IMG/VR virus record: IMGVR_UViG_3300005466_000013
Coordinates: 1 to 48,148 of that record
DNA from: a virus
DNA: 48,148 nt
Reading direction: 5' to 3' (one strand)
The notes beneath the pieces were generated by a model. The model worked only from the letters and a program-made list of their open reading frames with translations. It searched no databases and had not been told where the DNA came from. The translations under genes and the position numbers were made by a program. Position 1 is the first letter of the stretch; each line of letters begins with the position of its first letter. This document shows positions 3,651 to 47,425 of the stretch, one piece after another.

Positions 3651-3780
3651 ATTGCATTATTACAAATGTTGTGTATGTAATAATGTAAAATATGTGATAA
3701 TATTCCAAATAACATGTATGAAATAATTTAATATATGTTATGTGTATTAAATAGATCACATTATAATATACATGATAAAT
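3651..3780. promoter_or_regulatory. Candidate par promoter/operator and centromere region
   Basis: A very AT-rich 130 bp directly upstream of parA. It holds a perfect 9-bp inverted repeat, CATTATTAC (3655-3663) and GTAATAATG (3677-3685), abutting the start codon. Several related words follow (TGTATGTAATA, TGTATGAAATA, TGTGTATTAAATA). Small RHH partition proteins typically bind such repeats and autoregulate the operon. The role is inferred from position; I could not place a convincing TTTG/TAnnTTTG pair here. Confidence 0.45.
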
Positions 3781-7443: not shown

Positions 7444-7447
7444 AATT

Positions 7448-10134: not shown

Positions 10135-10138
10135 CTGT

Positions 10139-17475: not shown

Positions 17476-18393
17476 TTAACCTTTGTATTGGTTCGCTAAT
17501 TTCGCAGCTTCTGCTTGTACTGCGATCCTGTTTAGTTCCTGCAAGGACAATTTGCCGACAGGTTTTTCAGTCACAGTAAAAGGAGATTTGTTATTAATTC
17601 CATTGCCTTCAGCATCGGATTTCTTAACATAATCTTTAAGCTTTTCATTTAGCACAGTTTCAAGAGTAATTTTGTCGCTCTTGATGTATACATCTTTTTC
17701 CGGGTCATCTTTTTGACGAAGATGGACTCCGACACCTTTCTGATAAACTAATGAGTACTCGTCGGAAATCTCGCTTATAATTCCAGTAGCCGCGCGATCT
17801 TTGCCTCCGGGTATTTTATCCATCAGGTTATAAGAAAATATTTTTTGTTTGATAAAACTTCCAATTTGTTCGGATTCGACCTCCCGGTCTTTAGCCTTTA
17901 GTTTTTCAGTCCATTCTTTTTCAACTGCCTCTTTTGTTTCTTTCAGTTTCTTATTATAGTCTTCCTCCAATCTCCTTTTTTCTTCCTCTGAAGTGTGTTT
18001 TGTGGCAGGAACTTTAATTTTTTCCTGAATAGAACCAGGTAAATATTTATTAATAAGATCAAATTTTGTAGGAGTATCAACGGCTTTTGTGATCTCGTTT
18101 TTCTGATCGTCTGTTAAGTAATCCCCGAAAAAGGTTAGAAATTGACCTACTTTATTGTCGAGTATTCCATAAAACTTACCTCGTGCTGTTCTCTCGTGCT
18201 CATCGAAAATATCTTTATCGTTTTTTGCTGCATCTCTTGTAAGAAAATGTTTGTGAAATTCAGCGACAAAAGCCGGAGGAAGTTCAATTTCTTTCAATCC
18301 TGAAGCCCCTATAACCGTCGCAAAATCGGGGTTTGTCGGGTCTATTTTTGCCTTAGTAGCTACATCTTTTAGAAACTCCTGAACGTTTGGCAT
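17476..18393 (-). CDS. Capsid scaffolding-like protein (305 aa)
   Basis: A central coiled coil rich in Lys/Glu (S-E-E-E-K-R-R-L-E-E-D-Y and following, residues ~134-185) lies between two folded regions, the classic layout of a phage scaffold. It lies directly before the capsid gene. The N-terminal part (residues 1-110) is a helical domain of its own. No protease motif seen. Confidence 0.72.
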   Translation of the reverse strand: MPNVQEFLKDVATKAKIDPTNPDFATVIGASGLKEIELPPAFVAEFHKHFLTRDAAKNDKDIFDEHERTARGKFYGILDNKVGQFLTFFGDYLTDDQKNEITKAVDTPTKFDLINKYLPGSIQEKIKVPATKHTSEEEKRRLEEDYNKKLKETKEAVEKEWTEKLKAKDREVESEQIGSFIKQKIFSYNLMDKIPGGKDRAATGIISEISDEYSLVYQKGVGVHLRQKDDPEKDVYIKSDKITLETVLNEKLKDYVKKSDAEGNGINNKSPFTVTEKPVGKLSLQELNRIAVQAEAAKLANQYKG

Positions 18394-19941: not shown

Positions 19942-20346
19942 ATGAAAAACTTAGAAGAAAACATGTTGCCAGAGGAAAAGTACCTACTAAATACATTTAG
20001 CGGAGAATTCCTATTAAAGCTTGTTGACGAATCTATATATAACATGATTCAGCGCGCCGTGGATAAATATACACTGGAAAGTCATGGGGGGCCGTGGATT
20101 TGCATTAAACAGGCCGCTAAGATTTACGGTGTAAGTGTTAGATTTCTATATGGTCTTCAACAAAAACGACTAATAGGAACAAAAAAACTGGGAAACAAAA
20201 GAATGGTTTCTATGCGTGATCTTGACTGCATTAGTAGTCCTTTTGACTCCAATGGGAATTATCGGGCCGATTTAGCAGATCTTAACCTCTATAAACCGGA
20301 ATGGAAAGAGGAAATGGAAAGGAATCAAAAAGATAAGGAATCATAA
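19942..20346 (+). CDS. Excisionase-like helix-turn-helix DNA-binding protein (134 aa)
   Basis: Residues ~52-95 show W-I-C-I-K-Q-A-A-K-I-Y-G-V-S-V-R-F-L-Y, then K-K-L-G-N-K-R-M-V-S-M-R-D-L-D, a winged HTH of the MerR/excisionase type common in Bacteroidetes mobile elements. With no integrase here it is more likely a regulator than an excisionase. It is rightward and overlaps the end of the MuF-like gene by six bases. Confidence 0.68.
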   Translation: MKNLEENMLPEEKYLLNTFSGEFLLKLVDESIYNMIQRAVDKYTLESHGGPWICIKQAAKIYGVSVRFLYGLQQKRLIGTKKLGNKRMVSMRDLDCISSPFDSNGNYRADLADLNLYKPEWKEEMERNQKDKES

Positions 20347-21258
20347 ATACCCCTTTTCCCGCGCCCTCTTAACTACTTCATCGGGCACAATTCCCTCACT
20401 AACTGCAACAAATTGATGATTACAAGCATAACCGCCCCTATTGATTAAAATGTTATTTTCATTCGTTCCTTTTCGCATCCCGTCCCAATAAGCAACTCCG
20501 TTTCTTTTCTGAGGCCAAAGCAGACCGCAACATCTATCGCCGTTTCCCCACGCTTTTACTTCTTCTATATGGAAAAACTTCTTATTTCTTTCCTCACAAA
20601 AAGCCCTCGAAGTATCTTTTAGCCCTCCAACATATCTATAAAACTGTAATCCTAAATCAGTGGCTATTGAATGATTATAATTTGCATTATAAGACTTGAT
20701 AGAGTCGGAAGTAATAGTTTTAGTGTGTTTCAAAAAAGCTCCGTCTACATCTTCAGAACCAATTACAAAAGTTCTTAATTGCTCGGTCATAGTTCCGTAA
20801 CTCCCGCCTGTAGTAATGTTTTGAATCAGAATATCTTTTATCGGTTGGGTAAAAGCTTGATTTAAGCCTGACTGCATTAAAGATTGAATGGTATTATTAA
20901 CGCTGAAAGTTTTAACGGCGGCAAGCATCGGATTGACTTCGAATCCTTTTTTAATTACATTAAAATAAAGTGCTTGTTCGGCTTCTACCAGATCAAAAGA
21001 GCCTAAATACTTACTCACTCTCTTTTTATAAGCATCGGTTAATAAAGTATCTTCTATTGACTTTGAGAGCGTTTTTAATACTTTGACATTTTCGGCAGTT
21101 CGTTTGATGTTGCCTAAAGAATCTAGTTTTAGCTCTTTAACAAGTCCTAAAAGCTTTGAATAGGCATTCACCTGGGAGATTTCCAACCCCTGATTGAAGT
21201 CGTTAACGGCTGTTAAGATTATATCTTCAATGTTGGAGGCTAGGACTTCAGGCGACAT
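20341..21258 (-). CDS. MuF-like minor head protein (305 aa)
   Basis: The C-terminal region shows R-A-F-C-E-E-R-N...W...W-D-G-M-R-K-G-T-N...I-N-R-G-G-Y-A-C-N-H-Q-F, the conserved pattern of phage Mu gpF / SPP1 gp7-like proteins involved in head assembly. The N-terminal two thirds are helical. It directly follows the portal gene (11-bp overlap), the usual position. Confidence 0.8.
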   Translation of the reverse strand: MSPEVLASNIEDIILTAVNDFNQGLEISQVNAYSKLLGLVKELKLDSLGNIKRTAENVKVLKTLSKSIEDTLLTDAYKKRVSKYLGSFDLVEAEQALYFNVIKKGFEVNPMLAAVKTFSVNNTIQSLMQSGLNQAFTQPIKDILIQNITTGGSYGTMTEQLRTFVIGSEDVDGAFLKHTKTITSDSIKSYNANYNHSIATDLGLQFYRYVGGLKDTSRAFCEERNKKFFHIEEVKAWGNGDRCCGLLWPQKRNGVAYWDGMRKGTNENNILINRGGYACNHQFVAVSEGIVPDEVVKRAREKGYL

Positions 21259-23083
21259 CTAAAGGATTGTTTGACGGTGCAAGCTGTTTTGTCTTCGGAG
21301 CTGGTAAAACTGGGACTATATCTTCTATTTTCGGCTCGTTTCCCTTTATCAGACTTTGCGCATATCCTTTCATTATTTCGTTTTGTTCTTCGCGCTCCAT
21401 CTCTAAAAAGCCGTCATGTTCTTCAAGGGCCGTTTTAACGAATTTGACCACATTGTCAGATATCACTAAGTCTTCCTGTAGTACTGTCTGATTTAGTTTC
21501 ATGTTCATTTTATCTTCGATTGATCGACCTGGGAAAGGGTCTAAGTCAATGCAGAGAATTGCCCTCGCGCGTATTTCTTCATTTGTTCCAAACCTCTTAT
21601 CTATCAAATCTCTCTCAAGGGCTTCCAGGTAAATAGGGCTTGAATTGTTTTCTTTGGCTTTGGCGAGTTCTTCTGTTACATCCTGGATGGTTAAGATATC
21701 GAAGCTTGTAGGTTTTGAGATAATAGGTAAATACTCATCAACACGGGAACCGAAAAGAGTTTCGTATCTGTAGCGGTTAATAAAATAAAAGACGTTTAAA
21801 ACGTGATTATCATACATGTAATCTGAAATTCTCTGTAAGAAAGAGTTTAATTCAGTTCTATCTATTTCTTTTGCCCTTCCTGATTGGTTTTCGCCTATTT
21901 TATTGACAATATCCATGCAGATAGCAGATAAAGCGCGTTCTAAATTGTGTTGAATTTTTTCGTCTAAGACTGTGAGTATTTCAGTCGGCACGTTAATATA
22001 TCCGGCGGGAGGTACTATTTGACTTTTCCCTTCCATACTTGCCAACTTATCTGTATTAATCTGATAAACATCGAAAGGAGATTTTACAGAAATCTTTCCC
22101 GAGCCGTTACATTTTGAGCATGTAACATGCTTGTTTATTTTCTGTATGTAGATTTTACCGTCCTGGCAGTGCTGACCATCTTGGACGTTCTCACAATCCA
22201 AGGTCATTTCCCATTTTTGCGGGTGCAAATGATTAATAATCGCCCCGTCCAAATCGCTTTCTAATCTTACGGCTTTATTCCAGTAAGGAAGGGCAGCATT
22301 AAAGAAAGAAAGGTAATAATAAGGATAGGTGCGTGAATCTACCACGCCTCCTAAATTCCAAGCGGGTAAAACTCCGAAGTTGTGATCATATCTATTAAAC
22401 TCTATAAACTCCTTATTTTGATTAGAGCTTTCAGTCTCGTAAAAAGTAATTATTGAATTGATTGTAAACAGGTGAAATATTGCGCCCTCCCTGTTGTTTT
22501 TTAGTTTTACTGTATTCTGATCTTTAAAAAGGAAGAAAACGCCCTCTTTTTTATCCATTACTTGAGCTGAATTAAAAAGGACAATGTGAGGCGTTTGTAA
22601 ATCTGCTTGCGGTAGTTCGTATTTCGTCGGAACTACACAAATTGCCCCGTTAGGGTCTGCAATTTGTTGCCTTAATAGAACTTCAGAAAAATAATTAAAA
22701 ACGTTATCAAAAAGAGGAAAATTCTTAGTTGTGTAAACTTCTAAAGTTTCATTTTCTGCCAGTTTTACCCCTTGAGGTTGGGGAGGAAAATTAATAGAGT
22801 AAAGTTTCGGGTTGAAAATTTTCTGACCAATATAAACGGCCTTATCAAAGTCGGACAAAGTGATAGATTCCCAAGAATCAATACGATACTGCTTGACGGC
22901 GGCTTCTTCTCTGGGTCTTGCCTTATTGAGTATGTCTACAGGGTCTTCTCCCCATGCATGCACACCCATTTCTTTAGCATGGCTTACCGTTTTTTCATAA
23001 TTGGCATGCTTATACTTGTCGTCCTTAAGGATGTTAGTTAAATACTCTGAAAACTCTTTCCCCTCTAATTTATCTGGCAGCAT
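21248..23083 (-). CDS. Portal protein with a zinc-ribbon-like insertion (611 aa)
   Basis: Size, position before the MuF-like gene and the long C-terminal helix with V-L-P-A-P-K support a portal. Residues ~300-340 carry four cysteines (D-C-E-N...H-C-Q-D-G and C-S-K-C-N-G-S-G-K), an apparent zinc ribbon with a DnaJ-like G-S-G ending, in the part that would sit in the clip or stem region. The insertion may bind the terminase or DNA; that is inference. Confidence 0.78.
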   Translation of the reverse strand: MLPDKLEGKEFSEYLTNILKDDKYKHANYEKTVSHAKEMGVHAWGEDPVDILNKARPREEAAVKQYRIDSWESITLSDFDKAVYIGQKIFNPKLYSINFPPQPQGVKLAENETLEVYTTKNFPLFDNVFNYFSEVLLRQQIADPNGAICVVPTKYELPQADLQTPHIVLFNSAQVMDKKEGVFFLFKDQNTVKLKNNREGAIFHLFTINSIITFYETESSNQNKEFIEFNRYDHNFGVLPAWNLGGVVDSRTYPYYYLSFFNAALPYWNKAVRLESDLDGAIINHLHPQKWEMTLDCENVQDGQHCQDGKIYIQKINKHVTCSKCNGSGKISVKSPFDVYQINTDKLASMEGKSQIVPPAGYINVPTEILTVLDEKIQHNLERALSAICMDIVNKIGENQSGRAKEIDRTELNSFLQRISDYMYDNHVLNVFYFINRYRYETLFGSRVDEYLPIISKPTSFDILTIQDVTEELAKAKENNSSPIYLEALERDLIDKRFGTNEEIRARAILCIDLDPFPGRSIEDKMNMKLNQTVLQEDLVISDNVVKFVKTALEEHDGFLEMEREEQNEIMKGYAQSLIKGNEPKIEDIVPVLPAPKTKQLAPSNNPLDVA

Positions 23084-23719: not shown

Positions 23720-25351
23720 TTAGTAAACTAAGTTTTTAGATTGGTACGTTTTCTTTGAGAGTTTCCCGATTCCGCGTCGAAGTGCGTATTTCGGTACTCT
23801 CTCAAAGGTATATGGTTCCTCTTTCACATATTCCCGGCCTTCGATCGAAACATGTTGGTGAGACAAGGCTACTGTAATTATCTTATGTAAGTAGTATGGA
23901 ACGTAAGAAACATCTATATTCCAGACTTCTTTAATAGTTTCATAAAGTGGTACGATATACCCGTTAGACTTCGTGTAAACTTCGATTTCTTGAGGTAAAT
24001 TTTCTTCATCAAATATCGCCTCTAATCGCAAATGATTTATATATCCTGTTCCTTCATACTTTATCCCTTCGTAATCTGCATCATTCCAGTACTTAATCAG
24101 GATGTTACAGTCTAACCAATTGCTTGCTCTAATCGCCTCGCTCCTGGCATGAGTAAAGTACTCTGTATCATTATAAGCGAGGTAAGATTTGACCTCTAAA
24201 TATACTGTTTTGTTGCAAATCAATGGCAGTTCGCTTACGTTTTTGGCTATCGAGTAATAGCCGCCTCCCAAGTCAATAAATGGGAGAGAATAGAGCACTG
24301 ACTTAGTAGTCATGTCTATTACTGAAAGCTTCGGGATAGTCGAAAACTCTTCCTCTAAGTAATAGAGCTGAAGCGTTAGAACATCGGTACACTTAAGAGG
24401 TTGTGCGTAACAAGGTTGGTAAACTCCGCAAAGGTCAGACTCGAAATAGAGCTTATCTAAATCGTCCAATTCATTACAATGCTTCAGAACAAAACGATAA
24501 GGAATAGCCTCTGCAATAACGAGTGCCGGGTTAAAACATTCTTCAGGGATTGGTGGTACTTCGTCAACAAATTCAAGTATTTCGAAGTTATTAAAAGTAT
24601 AACAGAGGGCTGCGTCTCTGACTGCGATTGAATGAACTCCCGGTGCGATCCCTGTAAAAAAGCCGCTAGATTGAAAAATCCCGCCGTCTAAAGAAAACAC
24701 TATTCCTGTCTGAATGCTTGTAGCCGCAATGGTGGCAGTTCCATCGTTTAGGTCTGTTCCTGTTTCGTTTGTGTAAGTAAAAGACGATATTCGAATATTA
24801 CACGCCTGATTTGCTATGTCTACATTTGCCGCCCCAAAACATCCGTTATAATCTCTTAAAACTACAGTATAATTTCCTGAATTCAACCCGGAAAATACAT
24901 TACTGGTTTGCCACGCTCCGTCGGGGTTTAGTCTGTATTCTATTGTAAATGATGAAGTTGCGTTAACTGTGATCTTTCCAACTCCTGACGCATTGGTATC
25001 ATTTGCAACAACAACACTCGAGATAGCTAAATCGCATGGAGGTACAGGATTATAATAGATGTTAATATTAGAACCATTACTATTTACAATAATAGGGTAG
25101 CCGATATTCCAAGTCGCTCCGTCGGCTAAAGCTAGAATTGTGGTCGCGCTGCCACTCGCAGTAACTGAGTAATTAGTTAGTCCGACATTAGAAGTCCACC
25201 AAGATACTAAGGCGGCGGCGGCAGTTGGCCCGTCCATTCCGGAGGGAAAGGTAAACTTTTTCGATGTTCCTGCCCCGTCTACAGATGGAAAAGTAATACT
25301 ATCCGTAACGGCAGCGTTAACAAATTCAACAACCAAGTGAGACTTTGCCAT
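23720..25351 (-). CDS. Tail protein with SprB-like repeats (543 aa)
   Basis: Residues ~105-255 hold two copies of a repeat with the pattern Y-R-L-N-P-D-G-A-W-Q...F-S-G-L-N-S-G-N-Y-T-V-V-L-R-D-Y-N-G-C. This closely resembles the SprB repeat of Bacteroidetes gliding adhesins. The C-terminal half is a different beta-rich domain. It sits between two other large tail proteins and so is probably a tail-tip adhesin. Confidence 0.72.
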   Translation of the reverse strand: MAKSHLVVEFVNAAVTDSITFPSVDGAGTSKKFTFPSGMDGPTAAAALVSWWTSNVGLTNYSVTASGSATTILALADGATWNIGYPIIVNSNGSNINIYYNPVPPCDLAISSVVVANDTNASGVGKITVNATSSFTIEYRLNPDGAWQTSNVFSGLNSGNYTVVLRDYNGCFGAANVDIANQACNIRISSFTYTNETGTDLNDGTATIAATSIQTGIVFSLDGGIFQSSGFFTGIAPGVHSIAVRDAALCYTFNNFEILEFVDEVPPIPEECFNPALVIAEAIPYRFVLKHCNELDDLDKLYFESDLCGVYQPCYAQPLKCTDVLTLQLYYLEEEFSTIPKLSVIDMTTKSVLYSLPFIDLGGGYYSIAKNVSELPLICNKTVYLEVKSYLAYNDTEYFTHARSEAIRASNWLDCNILIKYWNDADYEGIKYEGTGYINHLRLEAIFDEENLPQEIEVYTKSNGYIVPLYETIKEVWNIDVSYVPYYLHKIITVALSHQHVSIEGREYVKEEPYTFERVPKYALRRGIGKLSKKTYQSKNLVY

Positions 25352-27774
25352 TATAATAAAATTAAATCACCATTTTCCATCAGTAAATCAAATCCATCTT
25401 GCAAAAGAAGTGTTTCCGCGTCTTCGGGCACGTAGTTAAATGGAAGTTCATTTGCTGCTATCATTTTAAACTTTCCTATTCCCCTTGTGACTTCCGCTTC
25501 TACCTCTAAGATAAAGGCTTCTATTCCTCCTTCAGGAAACAAATCACCTGATATAAAAATTGACTTGTTTCGATTAGCCTTAAGTACATTCAACTCTCTT
25601 AGAGAGAATGGATACTCGAAAATATATTCGTTTGGACTCCAAAGCGGTTCCACTTCCGGTAACTCTGCATAGGCCCAAAGTATACTTTCCCCTCCTTTTA
25701 AAAGTTCGGCATTGTAAGAGCCTGGGTAAACTATCTCGCTTACTTTTTGCTCCATTTGGACTATATAATTTCCTTCGCCTGATTGAAAATTATATTTAGT
25801 CCCGAGTTTTTTAAGCAAACCTCCGTTTATTTTGTTTCCTTGCCTCAAAAGGTTATAAGCCGTCCAAAGTCGTAAGTTGTAGGCTGTTTCAGGAGATAAG
25901 AGGTTATTGACAGTATCAAAATATTCATTTCTCTCGGATTTGGTCGGGTCTGTATGAAGGACGGCGACAATAAATAGTAAGTTATCGTACGCCGTATCTG
26001 TAGTCAATGTCGCATTATACTGCGCCCTTCGTGTTACTTCAATTAGTGAACCTGAAGCGATGACTTGAGAAACTAAGTTTAAAGTCTCTCCTATTGTTTT
26101 AAGATCGGTAGTGTAGTTGTGGATAGTACAAAACTCATCCAGGCCGTTTATGTCTTCGGGCAAAGATTTTTCATAGCCGATCCTTATTTGATTGTAAAAC
26201 TTATCCTTTGAAATATTCCTTTTCATCTTCGATATGAAAGTGAAAGAGAGAATATTTTCCTTAGTGTAGGCGTAGTTTAAAGATTCGATTCTTAGCCGTT
26301 GAACTCCTTCGATTTCTTCTAAGGAAAGAGAAAGACAGAATATTGCGTCTAAGCTTTCATAGATCGTTTTGAAATCCAACTGTAAGGGACGGTCTACATA
26401 GGGAAAATTGCGAATATTGAAACCGTTTTGGATTACATAATCAGCGTAAACTCCATTTTCTACATAAGAGTGATAGGGCGCGCCGATATAACCGAAAGTT
26501 TCAGAGTAAAAGGAGTCGTTTCGATTAGTGAGTTTATTACATAGGTTCTGTAAAACATCGTGAATCCGCATTGCTGGAGCTGTGGAAGGCAGAGTAAACG
26601 TTTTGCCTGTTATTTTTAGATAAGAGCCTTCGTTTAATAAAAAACCTGCCCAAAGCGCGTTAATAGCGTTAATTGCAACAAATCTTTCATATTCAGCCTC
26701 AATTGCGACGGCAGTATATAAAAAGACTTTGTCTCCTACTTGTAATTGGAATTCAGATAATAAAAAAATAATTTGCGGCCCTGTTATATCTGCATACATC
26801 GTTCCGCAATGGTTTGAGCTTCCCCAATCAACTGAGCTTTGATATTTTTCTACATCGTCCTTATCTCTGATTATAAAGAAAGTTTTTATTTTAACAATAT
26901 CTAAGGTTCCGTCATTTAGTCCGCATTGCGCTTTAGATGTTACTAAAGTTGATACGTGCTTAACTGAAACCATTGCAGTCAAATCTATTTTTATATCAAA
27001 GGTGTGTAAACCTTCCTCTTTTGCCGTGTAGATCGGCGGCGGCTCGTTGTCGCTTGCGCCTCCGGCTACTTCCCAATAATCTGTAAGTTCTTTTATTCCT
27101 GCCGGGAATCCATATTGAAGGTAAGCGGTTCTTTCTATAGGCGTTGTGTCGGGTTGATTTGGAAAAATCCCAGTTCTTCCTGCATCCGGCCAACCGGGAG
27201 CTCCCGCCGGAATTGTGAAATGCAAAACATCTCTAAGCGGTGCAATCGGTTGTTCTCCTGTCTTTACTTCACTTCTTACCTGTTTGACCAATACTTTCGA
27301 ATGCATACTCAAAGCATAAGGAGTATAAGTCTGCAACGCCACTCCGTCAACGCTCTTATTATCTTTAAAACTTACTTGTAATCCTGTTCTTTGGTCGAAA
27401 GTAGTCCAAAAATCTTCCTGCTCTGAAATACAGGTAACGCCTTTTTCAGTTTCAATTAAATCTTCGAGGTTCAATTTGCCTAAATAAACTACTTCCCATT
27501 CGCGCCCGTGGTCACTGATTTCGACCTGGATATTTACAATAGCGTCAGGCCCGTATTTGCTTTCGATATAAAGCAAGAACTCAGCGCCGCCGTTATATCC
27601 GTTATTTGCCCTCCTAAATTCCAGTTGGGTCGAGTATTCAAATAAAATAGAGTGGTACTTCTTATCTCTTTCGAGCTTAAATTTTACGCCGCTCCAACCT
27701 ACAGGCTCATCGATTAACAAATTGCCCTCGATAGCGTGAATAAGCATAAATCTAAACTCTATAGCTTTTCTCAT
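25351..27774 (-). CDS. Large tail protein (807 aa)
   Basis: It directly follows the tape measure gene, where distal-tail or baseplate hub proteins lie. The N-terminus (M-R-K-A-I-E-F-R-F-M-L-I-H-A-I-E-G) and a long beta-rich body suit a tail-tip hub. Its end overlaps the next start by one base. No catalytic motif seen. I do not recognise the family. Confidence 0.65.
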   Translation of the reverse strand: MRKAIEFRFMLIHAIEGNLLIDEPVGWSGVKFKLERDKKYHSILFEYSTQLEFRRANNGYNGGAEFLLYIESKYGPDAIVNIQVEISDHGREWEVVYLGKLNLEDLIETEKGVTCISEQEDFWTTFDQRTGLQVSFKDNKSVDGVALQTYTPYALSMHSKVLVKQVRSEVKTGEQPIAPLRDVLHFTIPAGAPGWPDAGRTGIFPNQPDTTPIERTAYLQYGFPAGIKELTDYWEVAGGASDNEPPPIYTAKEEGLHTFDIKIDLTAMVSVKHVSTLVTSKAQCGLNDGTLDIVKIKTFFIIRDKDDVEKYQSSVDWGSSNHCGTMYADITGPQIIFLLSEFQLQVGDKVFLYTAVAIEAEYERFVAINAINALWAGFLLNEGSYLKITGKTFTLPSTAPAMRIHDVLQNLCNKLTNRNDSFYSETFGYIGAPYHSYVENGVYADYVIQNGFNIRNFPYVDRPLQLDFKTIYESLDAIFCLSLSLEEIEGVQRLRIESLNYAYTKENILSFTFISKMKRNISKDKFYNQIRIGYEKSLPEDINGLDEFCTIHNYTTDLKTIGETLNLVSQVIASGSLIEVTRRAQYNATLTTDTAYDNLLFIVAVLHTDPTKSERNEYFDTVNNLLSPETAYNLRLWTAYNLLRQGNKINGGLLKKLGTKYNFQSGEGNYIVQMEQKVSEIVYPGSYNAELLKGGESILWAYAELPEVEPLWSPNEYIFEYPFSLRELNVLKANRNKSIFISGDLFPEGGIEAFILEVEAEVTRGIGKFKMIAANELPFNYVPEDAETLLLQDGFDLLMENGDLILL

Positions 27775-30095
27775 TTTGCTCTATATTTTCTCTCTAAGTA
27801 CTTAGTCCTTGAGGCTCCTTTTTCTTGATAGCGGGTAAATCCATCTTCATCGAAAGAGAATTTATTTACCTGGATTTTCTTTAGTTCTTCTATCAGCTCC
27901 TTATTTTCATTAATTATTAATTGGGAGCCTCCAAATCTTCCGGCTGCTATATCATTTAAGATTTTAGGATCGATTTTATGATCGAAAATCGCGTTTAGGA
28001 TAGGGTTGTACTTCTTTTTGGTGGCAAGGGGAATTACCATCTCTCCCGGCGTTAAGAATGCTGCCTCTGAATCTTTATTCCCGGTTCCTTTTACTCCTTT
28101 GGTTCCTTTAGCGTAAGCGGGGACTTGTTGCGAAGAAATGGCTGCGATTTGAACAGCTCCGGCGGCGGCTACTAATACCGCGAGAACGATACCGGGCAAT
28201 CCCATACTCAAGGCTGCAGTAATTCCTTGAGCTACATTTATTATCGCGTTGAAAATAGCTAACCTCTTTTCTCTTTCGGCTTGTTTTCTTCTTATTTCGC
28301 GTTGCTTACGGTCGAATTCTAGTTCGATTTTATTACGCTCAACGGCGTTAGTTCCTGCCAGGGCCAATTCAACTTCTTTATTGGCTGTTAATTGTTCTAA
28401 TCTCTGGTCGTCGAGTTGATTTTGATAATTTACTACTTCTGAATATAGGTTTTGAACCGCACTAGTATAGTCTTGCGCGAGTTGTAGGTTTCTCTCATAT
28501 CGTTCTTTTGTTCTCAGGTCTTCAAATTCATCTTGGGTTTTTTTGACGTTGTACTCTGTAGCTCTTGCGTTGATCCTTTTATCTATTTCAGAAACAAACT
28601 TATTTGAACTATCTTCAACGGCCTTCGATACCTCATGCTCTCCGGTAATAGTTTGACCGTAAACCTTTTTGTAATAGGCTTCGAAGAACTTGCGGCCGTT
28701 TTCCAATTTTTCTTGAATAAGATCGAGCGTTTTGGCTGTTTTTCCTGTGCCAAAGTCTACAGAGGCCAATTTTTCGAGGGCTATTTTTGCCCTCTCAGCG
28801 GCTTTTCCTACTCCAATCAAAGCGTCTATTTCCGCTTGCTTTTGTTTTATTCTCCTGTTATAATCTTTGATTTCATTAACTGAGGTAGCGGCCTCTCTTT
28901 CTTCGTTAAGCTCTTTTAGTTCTTTTCTTAACTTTTGAAGAATTCCAAGTTCTCCTTCCGTTACGCCCTCTAGCTTTTCCCTTTTTTTGATAAGGTCCTC
29001 TAGAATATGTATTTCCTCGGTCAAAGAATGTAGCATTCCTCCGGCGTTGTTATCCATTATAGCGCCAAGCCTTGCCCGTTGCTTAGTTTTTTCAATATAT
29101 TTTAACTGCTCTAAGTTTAATTTTTCCCATTCTGTAACCTGATCGGCTAAAGCCTTATTGTCTGCCTCTATTTGTCTGGTTGCATCGGTTTTAATTAATT
29201 CTGTGAGTTGATTTAGGTATCTGGTCAGCTCCGAAGTAGCAAAACCCATTACCCCTGATCCTTCTTTTCCAATCGTATTAAACAACTGGTCAAAAGCATC
29301 ATTCATATTTGATACTTTGCCGCCTAAAGTTTCTGAAACGGCAGCCATTCCACCCGCTACGCCTTTCATTTCTCCGAAAGCTTCAACAAGCTTTAATGCT
29401 CCGGCCTCTGACTTTTCGGCCTCTACTGTCATGCCCCTGAAAGTTCCTATTATCTTATCTCCGTTGACTTTTACTTTTACTCCTAGCTCTGTCCATCTTT
29501 CCGAGTTTGTTACATCCAAAATTGCTTCATTGACTTGAGAAAGAGGTTTGCCTAATGCACTGGCTAAATCTCCCATTTTAGTGAGAGAAGCCATAGACGG
29601 CTTTATTCCTCGATTTGCTAACTGTACATATGCCTCAGTTAACTCTCGGACTGAAAAAGGCGTTTTTGCTGCAAACTCTTGTATTTGAACTAAGGCGGCT
29701 TGTGCGAGGGAAGAACTTCCCAGAGAGTTAGTCAATACGGCTTCAAACTTTTGGAACTCGGCAGTAACATCAAAAATCTTTTTACCGAGATTTAAAACTG
29801 CATCAATGGTGAAAGCCGCCACGGCGGCCCCTGCAATCTTTTTAAAGGTATTTCCCAGTCCATCCACCGCAGACGAGGCCCCTTTTGTTGCCTTGCTTAG
29901 TTTATCTGCCTCTTTTGCAGATTCTTTAAAGGCGTTAGTAGTTGTGGCTCCTGCTTTCTTAGCATCCTTACCTAATTCTTCAACTTCTTTATCTGCTTTA
30001 TCGGTACTCTTAGCGATCTTTTGAAAGATAGCGTTAGCGGCTTCAATATCCGTAGTTTCTACACTGTAGACAATTTTGATATTCTTATCAGCCAA
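27771..30095 (-). CDS. Tape measure protein (774 aa)
   Basis: Long helical protein with coiled coils at about residues 20-75 and 300-620, a hydrophobic stretch near residue 650 (G-I-V-L-A-V-L-V-A-A-A-G-A) and the typical C-terminal L-T-P-G-E-M-V-I-P motif. The length fits a tail of roughly 115 nm if about 1.5 angstrom per residue holds. The initiation codon is TTG (30095), with no better ATG nearby. It is followed with a 4-bp overlap by the large tail protein. Confidence 0.88.
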   Translation of the reverse strand: MADKNIKIVYSVETTDIEAANAIFQKIAKSTDKADKEVEELGKDAKKAGATTTNAFKESAKEADKLSKATKGASSAVDGLGNTFKKIAGAAVAAFTIDAVLNLGKKIFDVTAEFQKFEAVLTNSLGSSSLAQAALVQIQEFAAKTPFSVRELTEAYVQLANRGIKPSMASLTKMGDLASALGKPLSQVNEAILDVTNSERWTELGVKVKVNGDKIIGTFRGMTVEAEKSEAGALKLVEAFGEMKGVAGGMAAVSETLGGKVSNMNDAFDQLFNTIGKEGSGVMGFATSELTRYLNQLTELIKTDATRQIEADNKALADQVTEWEKLNLEQLKYIEKTKQRARLGAIMDNNAGGMLHSLTEEIHILEDLIKKREKLEGVTEGELGILQKLRKELKELNEEREAATSVNEIKDYNRRIKQKQAEIDALIGVGKAAERAKIALEKLASVDFGTGKTAKTLDLIQEKLENGRKFFEAYYKKVYGQTITGEHEVSKAVEDSSNKFVSEIDKRINARATEYNVKKTQDEFEDLRTKERYERNLQLAQDYTSAVQNLYSEVVNYQNQLDDQRLEQLTANKEVELALAGTNAVERNKIELEFDRKQREIRRKQAEREKRLAIFNAIINVAQGITAALSMGLPGIVLAVLVAAAGAVQIAAISSQQVPAYAKGTKGVKGTGNKDSEAAFLTPGEMVIPLATKKKYNPILNAIFDHKIDPKILNDIAAGRFGGSQLIINENKELIEELKKIQVNKFSFDEDGFTRYQEKGASRTKYLERKYRAK

Positions 30096-33201: not shown

Positions 33202-34521
33202 TTATTTTGCGTTTTGTCCCGCGCTGAGACTTTGCGGTTTGTACTTTTTCGGGTTATCTATAAAGTCAGGAAAATTAGCATCAAGCAGATAGCGAAACCA
33301 ATCTAAATGGTGATTTCCGTTTGATAAACTATCCTTAATCAACTCCCCTTTTTCATCCACTGCCGCCTTTCCGCAATCTCTTATTACTCCTTTACAGTTT
33401 TCCCCGATTTCAATATTTGCATTAGTTAAAATTGAATTACAAAGCGTTCTACTGTCATCTAAATATAGGTTCTTTCCTCTTACTTGCATTTGCTCATCTC
33501 TTAGTTTGAGAGTAGACCTTACTACCTTCCAACTGGTAAGACCTGACTTTGCAGCCACGCGATTATTCCCCGACGCATCACCTGTTACCTTGAGGTTTGA
33601 AGTCATTTGAGGATATTTAGCGATTATTTGTTTACATACTTCCTCCGGGTCACTGTTTGCAATAGAAAATTCATCTATAATTTTCAGGGTTAAGAGGTTA
33701 TACCTTTGAGCTACGCCACAGGTCATAGGATTAACGTTAAAATCCAGGCTAATCCAGAGCGGAAGATTAGGATTAAGTTCAATAGGTTTGGTTTTATGTT
33801 TAAGCTCAGAAAAGGCGTATAAATAAGGCTTGTCATTAGCGTTTACAAATTCCCCGTCAATCTCTTGAAGGCGGTTCAATTCGTCAAGCTGTTCGGCTAG
33901 TTCGTCAATTTGGTGACGTGGAATAAAAGGATTGTCGTATGAGGTATATTTTAATCTTCGAAAGTTCTTGTCTCCGTCTTCGGCTCTTTTTGCCAAAGTG
34001 TAGAATTTATGCTCCCCGTCCTTATGATATTTGCCTTTAGGAACCCCGGCGGCTATGAGTTGACTATCTGAGTAATCTGTGAGCATCGGTAAAACTGCGT
34101 TGTCATAGAGGTAATTGTCTTTAAGAATAATCCCGGCCTCATTTAGGAAAATTTTCTTATATCCGAATCCTTCCCAGTTTTCGGGCCTGTCAGAGCTTCG
34201 AAAATCTATAACTGAATCTAAAATTTTTAATTCTCTTCTTTGTTGATGCCATGAGTAATTGTCTGAGCCTAGTATTTTAAGGACAGGAAGGAAGTATCTC
34301 TCAAAATATCTATCTATGTTGCCGTTTATTGTATCACCCCACAACATAGGGGTAATTCCATCTAAGGCGTATTCTATGTAAGCCTGTGCGGCTCCCCTGG
34401 TCAATCCAAATCTTCGACCTTTGGTTACGATAGTATATTTTTTAAACTGATCGTCAGGAGGAAAAAATATTTCCATTTGCGCCCGCGAGTAATCAAGATC
34501 AAGATTTATTATCGTTTCCAC
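33202..34521 (-). CDS. terL: Terminase large subunit (439 aa)
   Basis: ATPase half: T-K-G-R-R-F-G-L-T-R-G (Walker A, residues 33-43) and K-I-F-L-N-E-A-G (Walker B with Glu128). Nuclease half: S-L-D-F-N-V-N-P-M, T-G-D-A-S-G and H-H-L-D-W-F-R-Y supply the acidic residues of the RNase H-like cutting site. The start is GTG 34521. It overlaps the small subunit by 23 bases. It packages DNA into heads using ATP. Confidence 0.9.
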   Translation of the reverse strand: METIINLDLDYSRAQMEIFFPPDDQFKKYTIVTKGRRFGLTRGAAQAYIEYALDGITPMLWGDTINGNIDRYFERYFLPVLKILGSDNYSWHQQRRELKILDSVIDFRSSDRPENWEGFGYKKIFLNEAGIILKDNYLYDNAVLPMLTDYSDSQLIAAGVPKGKYHKDGEHKFYTLAKRAEDGDKNFRRLKYTSYDNPFIPRHQIDELAEQLDELNRLQEIDGEFVNANDKPYLYAFSELKHKTKPIELNPNLPLWISLDFNVNPMTCGVAQRYNLLTLKIIDEFSIANSDPEEVCKQIIAKYPQMTSNLKVTGDASGNNRVAAKSGLTSWKVVRSTLKLRDEQMQVRGKNLYLDDSRTLCNSILTNANIEIGENCKGVIRDCGKAAVDEKGELIKDSLSNGNHHLDWFRYLLDANFPDFIDNPKKYKPQSLSAGQNAK

Positions 34522-37809: not shown

Positions 37810-38850
37810 TCAAAAAGGGGCTACTTCCGGTTTATCTTTTTCATAAAAATTAATAGGCTGTTGTGCCACTGGTATTTCCCAACCGTTAAGCGGGGAGTCT
37901 CCATTTTCTTCGTTATATCGATTGGTTTTCCTGTCGAAAGTCAATTCAATTACTCCCGGTATTCCTACAAGCTTCTGATTTTTGACCTTATGGACATGGA
38001 GTTGTACTGCTTGGTCTGTTTTGTCTGCATGAAAATTAGGTCTATGGGCTGCCACTATTACGTCCATAGCGTTAAGCCACATTGCGCCGCCTCTCAAGTT
38101 GTAACCGTCAGGAACTGGTAATGAACCGTCTTTGTTTTTTACAATCCCGCCTCTTGGATGCTCCACGAAGTTAAAAACCAAACCTTTTCTAATCGCAAAA
38201 TCTTTGATCATTGCGAATTTTGAGGCCAAATATTCATCCAAAAGGCCGCTATAGTTGTGGATAACTTTATTCCAAGGGTCTAAAATGCAACCGTCTGCGC
38301 CTTCAGTGCCTACCACATAATCGAAATATTTTAAAACTACATCGGCTGTTTTTAATTCTTCTGGATAGATGACAGTAAAGTACTTATCAACGAATTCTAT
38401 TCCCCGGTTATATTCGGCCTCCGACATTTGCAAAAGTCCGTAATACGGGTCTGTAGTTTTTCCGATGTAGGAGTGTATCAAAGTATCATAAATTTCCTCC
38501 GGCGTAAGGTTCCCTTTCTCATCTGAACCCATATTTTCAGGGCAGAAGATTACCCATTTTTTCTTCGCATAAATGGAACGAGCCAAAGCCAATTGTAAAA
38601 TCATTTCGGTTTTCCCGTGGTTTGGAAATCCTGTCCAAGCATACAAAAAACCTCTTTTCCATGTCATGTGTGGATCAATCGACCGGAAATAAGTTGTTTC
38701 TCCTCTCGGTTTTCCTTTCTTGAAGGAAAGTTTCATGCTGTCGGCATAATCTGAGGCTTTGTAAATTCCCTTTTTGTAGGTCTTTTTTTCATCGGGGTTA
38801 CTGTCCAAAACTTTCATTATTTCGCCGGAAAATTCAGTGCCGTAAGTCAT
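37810..38850 (-). CDS. DnaB-like replicative helicase (346 aa)
   Basis: RecA-type motor: G-F-P-N-H-G-K-T (residues 74-81, Walker A), G-C-I-L-D-P-W-N (Walker B) and F-V-E-H-P-R-G-G. It lacks the N-terminal DnaB domain, so it is a short Twinkle/gp4-like helicase core. Placed after the replisome-organiser-like gene, it is probably loaded by it at the phage origin. Confidence 0.82.
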   Translation of the reverse strand: MTYGTEFSGEIMKVLDSNPDEKKTYKKGIYKASDYADSMKLSFKKGKPRGETTYFRSIDPHMTWKRGFLYAWTGFPNHGKTEMILQLALARSIYAKKKWVIFCPENMGSDEKGNLTPEEIYDTLIHSYIGKTTDPYYGLLQMSEAEYNRGIEFVDKYFTVIYPEELKTADVVLKYFDYVVGTEGADGCILDPWNKVIHNYSGLLDEYLASKFAMIKDFAIRKGLVFNFVEHPRGGIVKNKDGSLPVPDGYNLRGGAMWLNAMDVIVAAHRPNFHADKTDQAVQLHVHKVKNQKLVGIPGVIELTFDRKTNRYNEENGDSPLNGWEIPVAQQPINFYEKDKPEVAPF

Positions 38851-39203: not shown

Positions 39204-39938
39204 TTACCCTCCAAACAGCTTATCTTTTTCCTCTACTGTGTATTTCTTTTTTGTAATCGCAAGCACTGGCGCGGGTTCTTTGTTTTCTTCGTCAAACCAA
39301 ACTGAAATCATTTTTTGTTTCCAGTTATGGACTTTGTTTCCAAATGAATCATGCCAATCTGAAGCCTCATAATAATCAAAAGCTTTTTGAGCTGATCTTT
39401 TTGTATATCCTTTTTCTTTAAAGAAAGAAACTACTTCATTAAGGGAAGGGTGATTAGTATTACTACTCTTCTCTTCTTCTTTATCTTCTTCTTTATCTCT
39501 CTCTTCTTCTTGCCATGCTTCGCTATTTTTTTTATGGCGGTCGTTATGCTTCGCTATACTTTTTTTAACGGTCGTTATAGTGTCGCTATCGGTCGCTATT
39601 TTTTTCTTATTTTCCCATCGTTTTTTTGCTCCCAATTTTCCAGCTTCGGAGGCTTGAGCTTTTGTTTTTTCCAGGCTAATCGTATAATCTTTCACTTGAT
39701 GATCCAAAAAAGAAACATGCAAAAAATCCCCTTCCTGTTTTACAAAACCTAAATCTTTAAGTTTTTGAAGGTATTTTTTTCCGATCCTGTAATCAATGTC
39801 GGAGTCTTTCATTTTTCCTTCTAACTTCCAGTATAAACAACAAGCTTGTAAAAACGCCCCTTGTATGTCTAGCTTTTGAAAGGAAATCCTGCCGATTAGC
39901 CACCTTGCTACATCGAATTTAAAATAAGGTAGTTCCAT
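39204..39938 (-). CDS. Replisome-organiser-like replication initiator (244 aa)
   Basis: The N-terminal ~85 residues (F-K-F-D-V-A-R-W-L-I-G-R-I-S-F...G-A-F-L-Q-A-C-C-L-Y) fit the DUF4373 / Lin1244-type winged-helix domain of phage initiators. A charged linker follows, then a C-terminal domain (S-F-F-K-E-K-G-Y-T) common to phage replication proteins. The linker DNA holds six phased TCGYTAT words, so the gene may carry its own origin, as lambda O does. Followed by the helicase region. Confidence 0.75.
   Translation of the reverse strand: MELPYFKFDVARWLIGRISFQKLDIQGAFLQACCLYWKLEGKMKDSDIDYRIGKKYLQKLKDLGFVKQEGDFLHVSFLDHQVKDYTISLEKTKAQASEAGKLGAKKRWENKKKIATDSDTITTVKKSIAKHNDRHKKNSEAWQEEERDKEEDKEEEKSSNTNHPSLNEVVSFFKEKGYTKRSAQKAFDYYEASDWHDSFGNKVHNWKQKMISVWFDEENKEPAPVLAITKKKYTVEEKDKLFGG
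39520..39599. repeat. Six phased TCGYTAT repeats: candidate lytic origin
   Basis: TCGCTAT or TCGTTAT occurs at 39520, 39541, 39551, 39572, 39583 and 39593. Spacings are 21, 10, 21, 11 and 10 bp, nearly whole helical turns, so all sites face one side of the DNA. T-runs separate them, and a pyrimidine-rich stretch flanks them. Such an array inside an initiator gene resembles the lambda origin. Confidence 0.62.
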
Positions 39939-42178: not shown

Positions 42179-42361
42179 TCAATTTTCTTCCTCTGGTTCT
42201 TGGTCGTCGGCATTACAAACAAAATCAAAACACTTTTCACATAGGCCGGAAATCTTCGTTTCCGCTTTTCCGGCCTCAGTAAAGACATTTTTCTCTGAAA
42301 ATTCTTCACCACATCTTTGACACTCCGTAAAGGTTTGATCAAAATTAAAAAACGGGTTCAT
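42179..42361 (-). CDS. Small zinc-ribbon protein (60 aa)
   Basis: C-Q-R-C-G-E-E-F...G-L-C-E-K-C-F-D gives two Cys-x2-Cys knuckles, a zinc ribbon, followed by an acidic tail. It is linked to the exonuclease by ATGA. Role unknown. Confidence 0.65.
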   Translation of the reverse strand: MNPFFNFDQTFTECQRCGEEFSEKNVFTEAGKAETKISGLCEKCFDFVCNADDQEPEEEN

Positions 42362-43122
42362 ATCCTTAAATATGTAGGTAACTCCACCTCGAAAGCATCA
42401 AAATACTTCGTTTCGTACCCCGGCCAATAATTATTTGCTCTACATTGCGCGCATTTTTCAAGCAAAGATTTGTATTCCTTCCTCCCGTATTCGAGTACTT
42501 CCTCCGATAGTCTTAAAATGGAAAATTCGTGAGGTGCATCTTTTTCAATCGCGATTATGTAGTAGGGTAAAACCTCTTGAGTTGCATCTATATACATGCC
42601 GCCTTGCCTATGGTAAGCGTACTTAAAAATAGACCGGTGAAAGGTTTCAGGATCGGCACTTTCTGTTGTCTTAATGTCAACAACTCTTACCCCTCGATTA
42701 TAAACATCGAGCTTTGATTTGCAGTCTATCCCGGTTTGCTCATCTGTCCAATAAAATTCTTGCTCATATTCACCTTGCAGGAGTTCGCAAACTGCCGGAG
42801 AAGATAGCAGTTTTTTGCTCATGGTCAGTATCTTATCAAATTCATCTTGTCCGAGAAAGCATTTTCCCATATTGCGTTCTATGAAGTCAGAAAAAAGGGC
42901 TTTGCCTTCTTTTGTTCGCTTATCTACCTGGGGTAAAGCCATGTAAGAAGAAAGAAATTTGTCAGGTTCCAGGATAGCACAATGGAAAGCCCGTCCGAAT
43001 TCTAACGCTTCAGTTTCTTTAAATCCTACTTCCTCAAGGTGTTTGAAATGGGCAGGAGATTTCGCCAAGTAGGTCAATTTTGAGTTACTTATAGCGGTAT
43101 TTTCGTAGTAATTACTTTCCAT
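42358..43122 (-). CDS. RecE-like PD-(D/E)XK exonuclease (254 aa)
   Basis: E-F-G-R-A-F-H-C-A-I-L-E-P-D near residue 42 and D-V-Y-N-R-G-V-R-V-V-D-I-K-T-T-E with Y-H-R-Q-G-G-M-Y-I-D fit the DUF3799/RecE exonuclease core (Asp, then D-I-K). It would chew duplex ends to make single strands for the annealing protein of the preceding gene. They overlap by 11 bases. Confidence 0.83.
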   Translation of the reverse strand: MESNYYENTAISNSKLTYLAKSPAHFKHLEEVGFKETEALEFGRAFHCAILEPDKFLSSYMALPQVDKRTKEGKALFSDFIERNMGKCFLGQDEFDKILTMSKKLLSSPAVCELLQGEYEQEFYWTDEQTGIDCKSKLDVYNRGVRVVDIKTTESADPETFHRSIFKYAYHRQGGMYIDATQEVLPYYIIAIEKDAPHEFSILRLSEEVLEYGRKEYKSLLEKCAQCRANNYWPGYETKYFDAFEVELPTYLRI

Positions 43123-43815: not shown

Positions 43816-43841
43816 AAAAGAGCCTTTTAGGAGGCTCTTTT
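43816..43841. terminator. Bidirectional terminator after the leftward early gene
   Basis: AAAAGAGCCT (43816-43825) and AGGCTCTTTT (43832-43841) form a perfect 10-bp stem flanked by T/A runs. The stop of the 43827 gene lies in the loop. It separates the first early gene from the recombination operon. Confidence 0.85.
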
Positions 43842-44297
43842 TATTTTCGGGTTCAAGGCTTGGTATAATTCTTTTTCCATTTCTCTTATTTTCGCTTCGA
43901 AACTCATTCTCTCTTGATTCATTTGAGCGAAATATTTTACATTCAACTCCCTCGCTTCTGCTAAATCCTGGAGGTGCAAAACATCGGCGGCGATATCCAT
44001 TACAAACCCATCAAACTCTTGTCTATATTCGTCGTATTCCTCAAACTCTGCGAAGGTTAATTCATGCATTTTTTCGTTCTCGTCGTCTGATCCGTAGTAA
44101 AAGCTTTGCACCATTCTATTTTTACCCCTGTGATAAAATTCCTGCTCTAAAAGAGTTCTTTGAACCGGGAGCATATAAGAAAGGGGCGCGCCGTAAACTT
44201 TTATGTTTTCGTCAGTAACGGGAACAGTATAGAAATCTCTGTCCTGTTCGATATCTGTTCCTATTGTGATTTTTCCTATTGTCTTTTCTTCTAACAT
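43827..44297 (-). CDS. First leftward early gene, unknown function (156 aa)
   Basis: ATG 44297; the longer frame starts with TTG 44306. Acidic N-terminal half, tyrosine-rich middle (Y-Y-G-S-D-D-E-N-E-K) and a helical C-terminus. It is directly under the operator region facing the repressor, so it is the cro-side gene of the switch, but it has no HTH and is not a Cro. Confidence 0.65.
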   Translation of the reverse strand: MLEEKTIGKITIGTDIEQDRDFYTVPVTDENIKVYGAPLSYMLPVQRTLLEQEFYHRGKNRMVQSFYYGSDDENEKMHELTFAEFEEYDEYRQEFDGFVMDIAADVLHLQDLAEARELNVKYFAQMNQERMSFEAKIREMEKELYQALNPKIKRAS

Positions 44298-44308
44298 GGT
44301 ATTCAAAT

Positions 44309-44399: not shown

Positions 44400-44780
44400 A
44401 TGGATATAAATCAACGCGTTCAATACTCGATAATTTCGAGCAAAAAAAAACTAGGTGATTTAGCTAAACTGCTTGGAGTTTCACAACCTTCTGTTACAAG
44501 ATATCTTAACGGATCGCAAAAACCAGGAGATGAAATACTATTAAAGCTGGCAAATGTTACCGACCAGAATTACGAGTGGTTAAAAACTGGATCGGGGAAA
44601 GTTCCTTTAGGATTTAAAGATTTCATAGGTTCGACCGGGTTATCTAAAGAGGAACTAGTACAAAAAATACACAGCTTAGAAAGTAAGGTGGAAAAACTTC
44701 AATCTGAAGTAAAGAGGCTCAAACGGGAAAATGAATTATTGGAAAGACTTACGGAGAAAGAGAGTGCAAAATCGACATAA
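44400..44780 (+). CDS. XRE-family phage repressor (126 aa)
   Basis: HTH at residues ~17-42: L-G-D-L-A-K-L-L-G-V-S-Q-P-S-V-T-R-Y-L-N-G. C-terminal coiled coil (V-Q-K-I-H-S-L-E-S-K-V-E-K-L-Q and following) likely dimerises it. It lacks a LexA-like peptidase domain, so induction needs another signal. It reads away from the operator region and is the likely lysogeny regulator. Confidence 0.8.
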   Translation: MDINQRVQYSIISSKKKLGDLAKLLGVSQPSVTRYLNGSQKPGDEILLKLANVTDQNYEWLKTGSGKVPLGFKDFIGSTGLSKEELVQKIHSLESKVEKLQSEVKRLKRENELLERLTEKESAKST

Positions 44781-45713: not shown

Positions 45714-45718
45714 ACTCA

Positions 45719-45743: not shown

Positions 45744-45777
45744 CAGTCTAAAAATTATATACAGAAACTGGCCCAAA

Positions 45778-47040
45778 TTATTTTTTATTCAATTGTCTCA
45801 TTTTGCGCGCGTAGGCTGCAATATATTCATCGTCTGATACTGTCTCTTCATTTTTGCTAAACAATTCACCTACGGCGGCCTTTGCTCCTTCTGGAGTATC
45901 TACATTAACGACCTCGTGAGGATCAAAAGATAATTCAGGTTGAATCTTTTTTAACAGTTTATTCCTTTCGGCTGATACCTGGGTAATCCATTGACCAATA
46001 TTTAAACCATTATACAACCATGATGCAAGGTTTTTAACAGGCTGCTTGTTCTTCTGCTTTTTTAGGTACTCTTTTCGGGCCGCTTCTATTGAAAGTTGAA
46101 CATAATCAACCGACCATTGAAACCCGTTAGGGCTTACGCTCTGAGCATTTATTTTCTGTCTTATTTCTTTCACATAGTGAGGATGAAAACCGGCCCTTAA
46201 TAGAGATTTTTCCCAATCGTTTTGGCCCGCTGGCAAATCGTTTTCATCTTCCGGGCCTTTCCTGAATGTGAAAATTATTTCTTTAACCTTTTTCCCTTTC
46301 TCTTTTGGAAAATAGTCATAAGAAAATTCTGTCCATGTGTTGTCAAAGTCTTCTTTTCCGGCTTCTATTACTCTGTCCCTTAAATCAATCCATCTTTTGT
46401 AATTGTCTGGTACATTTAATTCACTCCTGAAGTTGTCAGGAGATATTTTAACGACTTTCTTCCACGCTTGATTTTTTCGAATCCACCAATAAAACGGGCC
46501 AGAGATAGCATACTTCAACTTCCTCAGTGCCTCAATATCTCCTTTTGTGAAATTAGTAGGAGGCGGCAATACTGGAATCTCTTTTATGGCAAGCTTTAAA
46601 GATTCTTCTAACTCTTCATCTTTCTTACCTATAAGTTCCTTTTGGATCATAATTAAAACCCATTTAAAACGAGCGTAAAGCCTTACTGTAAAAGTTCCGT
46701 CTGCAATATTTATTTCAGGAAAAGGAACCATTGAAGAGTCCGAGTCCTCCTTAAAATATTTCAACATAAATTTTCTATCGAAGTAGAATGATGCTGATTG
46801 CAGTCTTTGAGCTAACAGCTCTTTATTTCGCTGCAAATTGGACGGGTCGCCAGTACAAATGTGCTCATCCTTGATAGTATAGGTTAATTGGGTCGGGTTG
46901 TCCCTGTGATTAAGATTAATAATCTCATGGTAAAAATGATGATCACTAATTGTTGATAGGCTGTTTTTGTCTGCATCTCTCAAATGGTTATTAACAAATG
47001 CAGTGTAAAGGCTTGGGTGTTTTATCTCTTCTTCTTTCAT
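45778..47040 (-). CDS. rep: Rep_3-type plasmid replication initiator (420 aa)
   Basis: The conserved Rep_3 second winged helix is at about residues 172-262: L-R-K-L-K-Y-A-I-S...I-S-P-D-N-F-R-S-E-L-N-V-P-D-N-Y-K-R-W-I-D-L-R-D-R-V-I-E and G-K-K-V-K-E-I-I-F-T-F. Long N- and C-terminal extensions make it larger than common RepA/RepB. Five ACCTAACGC iterons lie directly upstream, starting 11 bp from the ATG, which supports iteron binding and autoregulation. Confidence 0.85.
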   Translation of the reverse strand: MKEEEIKHPSLYTAFVNNHLRDADKNSLSTISDHHFYHEIINLNHRDNPTQLTYTIKDEHICTGDPSNLQRNKELLAQRLQSASFYFDRKFMLKYFKEDSDSSMVPFPEINIADGTFTVRLYARFKWVLIMIQKELIGKKDEELEESLKLAIKEIPVLPPPTNFTKGDIEALRKLKYAISGPFYWWIRKNQAWKKVVKISPDNFRSELNVPDNYKRWIDLRDRVIEAGKEDFDNTWTEFSYDYFPKEKGKKVKEIIFTFRKGPEDENDLPAGQNDWEKSLLRAGFHPHYVKEIRQKINAQSVSPNGFQWSVDYVQLSIEAARKEYLKKQKNKQPVKNLASWLYNGLNIGQWITQVSAERNKLLKKIQPELSFDPHEVVNVDTPEGAKAAVGELFSKNEETVSDDEYIAAYARKMRQLNKK

Positions 47041-47050
47041 TTTTTTAAAA

Positions 47051-47177
47051 TCATTGCTGCGTTAGGTTCTTCATTGCTGCGTTAGGTATATATAGTACCG
47101 TTCGTCTTTCCGGCGTTAGGTATATATAGTACCGTTCGTCTTTCCGGCGTTAGGTTTTCGTCATTGCTGCGTTAGGT
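47051..47177. repeat. Iteron array upstream of rep (plasmid origin)
   Basis: GCGTTAGGT on the plus strand occurs at 47059, 47079, 47113, 47147 and 47169. Three copies sit in TCATTGCTGCGTTAGGT, and two follow TTCCG. The unit 47081-47114 (34 bp) is repeated exactly at 47115-47148. This five-iteron set next to the rep gene is the pattern of an iteron-controlled theta origin. Confidence 0.83.
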
Positions 47178-47398
47178 TTGCCTCTGAAACCCTTTACTGT
47201 TGCGGCTTTCCATTTCCTTAAGTAGTATAGTAGTTAAATAAGTAGTAAAAAAGATGCTTTGCATTAATTTTTTTTCTTTTCAATAAGGGTAAAAAAAGAG
47301 GCTTCGCATTTAAAATTTTTAACTCAGACAAAACAAAAAACAAAAAGCTGCAAACCGGAAAAGAGAAAGAAGCACACCGGGGGCGGCGATTTTTTCCC
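47178..47398. other. AT-rich origin region with imperfect repeats
   Basis: No credible gene. AGTAGT words at 47219-47246 are followed by two imperfect copies of an AAAAAAGAxGCTTxGCATT unit (about 47247 and 47292) and T-runs. This suits the DNA-unwinding part of the iteron origin. No DnaA box was recognised with confidence. A GC-rich patch (47376-47390) precedes the hairpin at 47399. Confidence 0.5.
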
Positions 47399-47424: not shown

Positions 47425-47425
47425 T

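Follow-up and report, generated by a model that had tools for sequence, protein, structure and literature searches.

A temperate phage-plasmid candidate with a Rep_3-type initiator, iterons and ParA beside siphovirus-like virion genes, from a probable Bacteroidota host

P1 is a phage-plasmid with an iteron-dependent initiator, a par operon and separate lytic replication. Phage-plasmids typically lack an integrase (PMC12977533), and P1-like members can become integrative prophages or plasmids (PMC10879196). A 2015 study reported ParA/ParB for 13% of 1,756 viral contigs that came from microbial genomes and were circular or large (PMC4533152). The human gut crAssphage Carjivirus communis is reported to be a linear phage-plasmid, and related elements were sought via repL homologs (PMC11652158, PMC12977533). 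A 2026 survey names Bacteroida as one of the host groups predicted most often for phage-plasmid-like elements (PMC13221032). The statement in the preliminary description of the DNA analysed here that this lifestyle is known mainly from Proteobacteria and Firmicutes therefore has to be corrected, as Bacteroidota cases (crAssphage and those in PMC13221032) have already been published.

Here we analysed the complete virus record IMGVR_UViG_3300005466_000013 (48,148 nt), referred to as the window. Virion genes and plasmid replication and partition genes were found on this one molecule, and no integrase was recognised. We therefore think it very likely that the window represents a temperate, siphovirus-like phage-plasmid that is kept in the lysogen as a low-copy iteron circle. 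Like P1, it combines virion genes, a repressor, a plasmid initiator with iterons and ParA-type partition in the absence of an integrase. It differs from P1 in a siphovirus-like virion with no recognised sheath gene and no detected sequence relationship, in its size of 48 kb, in its probable Bacteroidota host, and in its small ParF-like ParA. With crAssphage it shares the phage-plasmid character and, if the probable host assignment is right, the Bacteroidota host, but crAssphage was reported to be linear, whereas the window is apparently a circle that carries ParA and a Rep_3/iteron origin. Thus, the lifestyle is already known, whereas the lineage appears to be new; what the window adds is the occurrence of the Rep_3/iteron type in a virion lineage that is unfamiliar, together with an integrase-bearing relative. 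The coordinates of the features are listed in Table 1.

Table 1. Predicted features of the window and the matches on which their assignment is based.
Feature	Coordinates	Strand	Description
Small ParA partner	2662..2982	-	106 aa; overlaps the parA end; by position and size a candidate centromere-binding protein
parA	2970..3650	-	small ParA/ParF-like partition ATPase, 226 aa
AT-rich degenerate inverted repeats	3651..3779	.	upstream of parA; candidate partition site/operator
Tail fibre (collar-fibre-like)	8182..10209	-	phrog_910, E 7e-7
Probable major capsid protein	16363..17454	-	synteny with 381-389-aa proteins of L010 and L012, ~19% identity
Probable scaffold	17476..18393	-	located after Mu-F; L012 equivalent 25% identical, E 1e-7
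Head maturation protease/Mu-F-like head protein	20341..21258	-	phrog_595, E 2.8e-8; homologs in relatives
Portal	21248..23083	-	phrog_7376, E 3.2e-15; homologs in G001, G003, G005, G006, G008, G010, G011
Virion structural (tail) protein	25351..27774	-	phrog_15220, E 5.9e-94
Tail tape measure protein	27771..30095	-	774 aa; phrog_5062, E 2.9e-32; PF20155 (TMP_3) just below cut-off
Terminase large subunit	33202..34521	-	phrog_2, E 2.1e-27; homologs in virion relatives
DnaB/primase-helicase-like ATPase	37810..38850	-	putative phage replication module; phrog_239, E 2.7e-16; near-identical relative in G001
Primosomal/replication-initiation-like winged-helix protein	39204..39938	-	putative phage replication module; phrog_9327, E 1.3e-4, other weak matches
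Exonuclease VIII-like/DUF3799 PDDEXK nuclease	42358..43122	-	recombination; phrog_412, E 8.7e-70; PF12684, E 2.7e-34
First leftward early gene	43827..44306	-	divergent from repressor
Repressor	44400..44780	+	Cro/CI-type HTH, coiled-coil C-terminus; PF01381, 37 bits; phrog_8, phrog_4
rep	45778..47040	-	iteron-binding replication initiator of the Rep_3 type; 420 aa with two winged-helix domains
Five iterons, TCNTTNCNGCGTTAGGT	47051..47178	+	direct repeats just upstream of rep
AT-rich stretch	47201..47350	.	lies past the iterons, 70-76% AT; candidate for the unwinding element

Replication initiator and candidate origin

The rep product scored 30.3 bits with the Pfam family Rep3_C (PF21205; curated cut-off, 21.1 bits), and in a six-frame search of the window Rep3_C reached 35.2 bits; Rep3_N (PF01051) was not reported in the Pfam scan of Rep at E ≤ 1. 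In PHROGs the protein matched a replication initiation family (phrog_4402, E 2.7e-9), and a PDB search with a profile made from Rep and four Bacteroidota relatives retrieved RepE of the F plasmid (1rep/2z9o) at E ~6e-6. For fold searches an AlphaFold2 model of modest confidence was used (pLDDT 61.5, pTM 0.31). With this model, the first 45 Foldseek rows were all RepE, and pi was also listed in the fold searches. When residues 32-264 of the model, comprising both winged-helix domains, were compared by VIA-align, Z scores of 8-10.8 were obtained for RepE54 and of 8.9 for pi (2nra). The rmsd to RepE and pi was high over both domains jointly and ~3 Å for the second domain alone, suggesting that the angle between the domains is uncertain in the model.

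As the Pfam, PHROGs, PDB profile and fold searches agree, a chance match was rejected as the source of the similarity. The assignment of Rep to the Rep_3 family, based on profiles and the predicted fold, is thus well supported, and the Rep_3-like initiator proposed in the preliminary description was upheld by profile search. The identity of Rep to the Rep proteins of Bacteroidota plasmids and metagenome-assembled genome (MAG) contigs was about 25-35%. An insertion of ~28 residues between the winged-helix domains (residues about 135-162) is absent from these plasmid and MAG relatives. Single-protein and alignment scans of viral contigs, among which close relatives of the window may be missing, revealed no relatives of Rep, and hence no second phage with this protein was found; the six-row Rep alignment contained no stretch conserved enough for scanning.

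The iterons start at positions 47051, 47071, 47105, 47139, and 47161, corresponding to a start spacing of 20, 34, 34, and 22 nt. Their core, GCGTTAGGT, is present in five copies on the plus strand and nowhere else on either strand of the genome. Low-complexity AT words made an unrestricted 9-mer shuffle test uninformative; the test was therefore limited to 9-mers with at least four G/C. Under this restriction, comparable 9-mers reached at most three copies in 5000 shuffles of the region 47041-47425, compared to the five iterons, and at most two copies per 150 bp in 20 shuffles of the whole genome. The five iterons noted previously beside rep are thus unique to the array and far above chance. 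Arrays of ~20-nt repeats were present directly upstream of rep in five of six relatives (L002, L003, L026, L027, and L028); the record of the sixth, L029, starts inside rep, so that the upstream region lies outside the record. By analogy to iteron-plasmid origins in general, the AT-rich stretch beyond the iterons is a candidate for the unwinding element. No DnaA box was found close to the iterons. For environmental Bacteroidota, the rep-iteron cassette might be of use as a vector origin.

Partition genes, genome ends and composition

The ParA protein matched the phage ParA-like family phrog_164 (E 3.6e-30) and Pfam AAA_31/CbiA, and its best PDB match was ParF (4dzz). The ParA operon that had been described at positions 2662-3650 was thereby confirmed with respect to parA, and a small downstream partner gene is indeed present. 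The partner had no match in Pfam and PHROGs searches, including ribbon-helix-helix profiles. With respect to type Ib (ParF-like) systems, the window thus has a small, ParF-like ParA and a partner without a ribbon-helix-helix profile match. Small open reading frames (ORFs) also adjoin parA in L002, L003, L026, and L027, but they aligned poorly with the partner.

The first 50 nt of the record are identical to the last 50 nt, and based on this terminal direct repeat the window is probably a circle of 48,098 bp. Of the earlier statement that the DNA is a circle, the end overlap was thus verified, while circularity itself is deduced from an overlap that is short. This shortness, and the lack of a second contig across the rep-virion junctions, would be compatible with an assembly chimera of a phage and a plasmid segment. 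However, GC content, tetranucleotide composition, and GC3 show no step across rep and parA, both of which match the virion genes in these respects; the two genes flank the contig join from opposite sides, ~3.6 kb apart on the circle; and the gene order is collinear with that of an integrase-bearing relative (G003, see below) on both sides. We therefore regard a chimera as extremely unlikely, and it was rejected as the leading explanation because of the uniform composition.

A compositional outlier was observed at positions 5230-8182 (GC 0.42, largest tetranucleotide distance). This region encodes two proteins, one containing a LamG-type lectin domain (7448-8182) and one of 459 aa that matched nothing, and is possibly a host-recognition region.

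Phage genes and an integrase-bearing relative

The virion genes listed in the preliminary description were recovered, with terminase, portal, tape measure protein, and fibre identified by profile and the capsid protein assigned by gene order and weak similarity. In addition, a Mu-F-like protein was identified by profile, and a scaffold protein was assigned in the same way as the capsid protein. The structure model of the probable capsid protein (pLDDT 29) was too poor for a fold search. As no sheath gene was recognised, a siphovirus-like tail is likely. Homologs of the tail protein encoded at 25351..27774 occur in Cellulophaga, Polaribacter, and Leeuwenhoekiella phages. Endolysin, holin, and spanin genes were not recognised in the whole window by Pfam and PHROGs searches; in G003, by contrast, a lysozyme-like ORF is present (L030 1956-2372). 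Between the probable capsid gene and a 317-aa head/tail gene, the region 13158-16299 contains genes for an FkbM-type methyltransferase and two to three glycosyltransferase-like proteins, homologs of which are located elsewhere in G005 and G011.

The HTH domain of the previously noted repressor was confirmed by Pfam and PHROGs; an S24 peptidase domain was not found by Pfam. Separate from rep, the window carries a putative second replication module composed of the helicase-like ATPase, the primosomal-like protein, and the exonuclease VIII-like nuclease.

Seven virion-related records, five of them long, were compared with the window. In G003 (IMGVR_UViG_3300010383_000115; 47 kb, GC 0.415), positions 1-1269 encode a tyrosine integrase and positions 45,678-46,403 an S24-like HTH repressor, and no match to Rep_3 or ParA was found. 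As the contig begins at the integrase start codon, G003 might be a trimmed provirus. Its terminase, portal, Mu-F, and tail proteins and some early genes are homologous to and collinear with those of the window. On circle maps, both show early genes (minus strand), a repressor gene (plus strand), a variable interval, and then fibre genes (minus strand). The interval after the repressor contains the integrase in G003 and rep, the iterons, small ORFs, and parA in the window. The two repressors share no detectable homology and correspond in position alone. This shared layout, with integrase or rep/par in the same interval, supports an exchange of modules. A plausible but tentative scenario is that in an integrative family of Bacteroidota siphophages a rep-iteron-par cassette from plasmids of the Cytophagales type took the place of the integrase/attachment interval next to the immunity region, while virion and early genes were kept. 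Phage-plasmids act as vehicles of gene exchange between phages and plasmids, and the window and its integrase-bearing relative of similar layout offer a testable case of interconversion between integrative and plasmid lysogeny outside the well-studied groups of Proteobacteria.

In the other long records G005, G008, G010, and G011, which may be partial, no match to integrase, Rep_3, or ParA was found. G001 is the only near-identical relative and covers 18.9-38.9 kb of the window, outside the rep region. In an 18.9-kb contig (L004/L044, IMGVR_UViG_3300046824_000067), most proteins are nearly identical to those of this same part of the window, the tape measure protein shows 83% identity, and small genes are divergent or replaced (e.g., 34904-35389 at 51%).

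In agreement with the earlier statement that an integrase is missing, profiles for tyrosine integrases, serine resolvases, and rve were all silent in the window, yet they matched in most control genomes. The phage could in principle integrate by an unrecognised or a host recombinase, e.g., of the XerCD type, with rep and par as accessory genes; phages using XerCD encode no integrase, and many small ORFs of the window have no profile match. Besides the silent profiles, the lack of a tRNA gene or a tRNA-like att remnant in the window, which also gave no Rfam match, argues against such a hidden integration, and Rep and the iterons would make it unnecessary, so that we consider it very unlikely. 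A replication origin and a partition operon at the place where G003 has its integrase rather indicate that the phage most likely persists as a plasmid and not as a chromosomal insert.

Lysogeny, host and plasmid relatives

The earlier interpretation as a temperate long-tailed phage-plasmid is supported by the Rep_3 assignment, the absence of a recognised recombinase, and the presence of virion genes on the same molecule; we infer from these features extrachromosomal lysogeny, copy control, and a division of labour between two replication modules. In the lysogen, early and late genes would be kept silent by the repressor, with the 48,098-bp circle replicating as a low-copy iteron plasmid. Rep is expected to bind the iterons, to open the adjacent AT-rich DNA, and to recruit host replication proteins, with excess Rep bound to the iterons limiting the copy number, and ParA with its small partner would segregate the copies of the circle. 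Upon loss of repression, the phage module would amplify the DNA for packaging and lysis.

As no peptidase domain is present in the repressor, which also has no detectable kinship to that of G003, the assumption of temperance relies on its HTH similarity, and HTH regulators occur in many lytic phages. Neither a lysogen nor a host plasmid carrying the window was found in the sampled genomes and the plasmid and phage collections. These observations would also fit a virulent or pseudotemperate phage in which Rep and the iterons form a lytic origin and ParA has another role or is a relic. Such a phage would, however, possess a second, phage-type replication module, as well as ParA and a small partner of no obvious use in the lytic cycle, and the integrative G003 shares the layout of the window. 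A virulent phage is therefore unlikely, and we favour the temperate phage-plasmid.

A search of 395 genomes sampled from one phylum did not detect the portal, which also had no match in collections of plasmid and phage records, and nothing was found when genome contigs were scanned with an alignment of the tail protein; no host match was obtained for the window. The relatives of rep and parA in Cytophagales and the structural relative in phages of Flavobacteriia point to the Bacteroidota as the probable host.

The nearest relatives of Rep are encoded by plasmids of Pontibacter sp. G13, Tunicatimonas, and Hymenobacter (Cytophagales) and by contigs of Bacteroidetes MAGs, and those of ParA by Cytophagales plasmids of Hymenobacter, Tunicatimonas, and Persicobacter; the Tunicatimonas plasmid NZ_CP120684 carries relatives of both genes. 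These Rep_3 iteron plasmids resemble the window in the Rep family and in having iterons upstream of rep, and in the two plasmids examined ParA is likewise encoded on the same replicon as rep. Unlike the window, these two had no portal match, and the Tunicatimonas plasmid has conjugation genes. Rep is 31% identical to the Pontibacter protein and 25% identical to that of Tunicatimonas. Identities of ~25-35% argue against a recent transfer of the rep/par cassette from any of the sampled plasmids.
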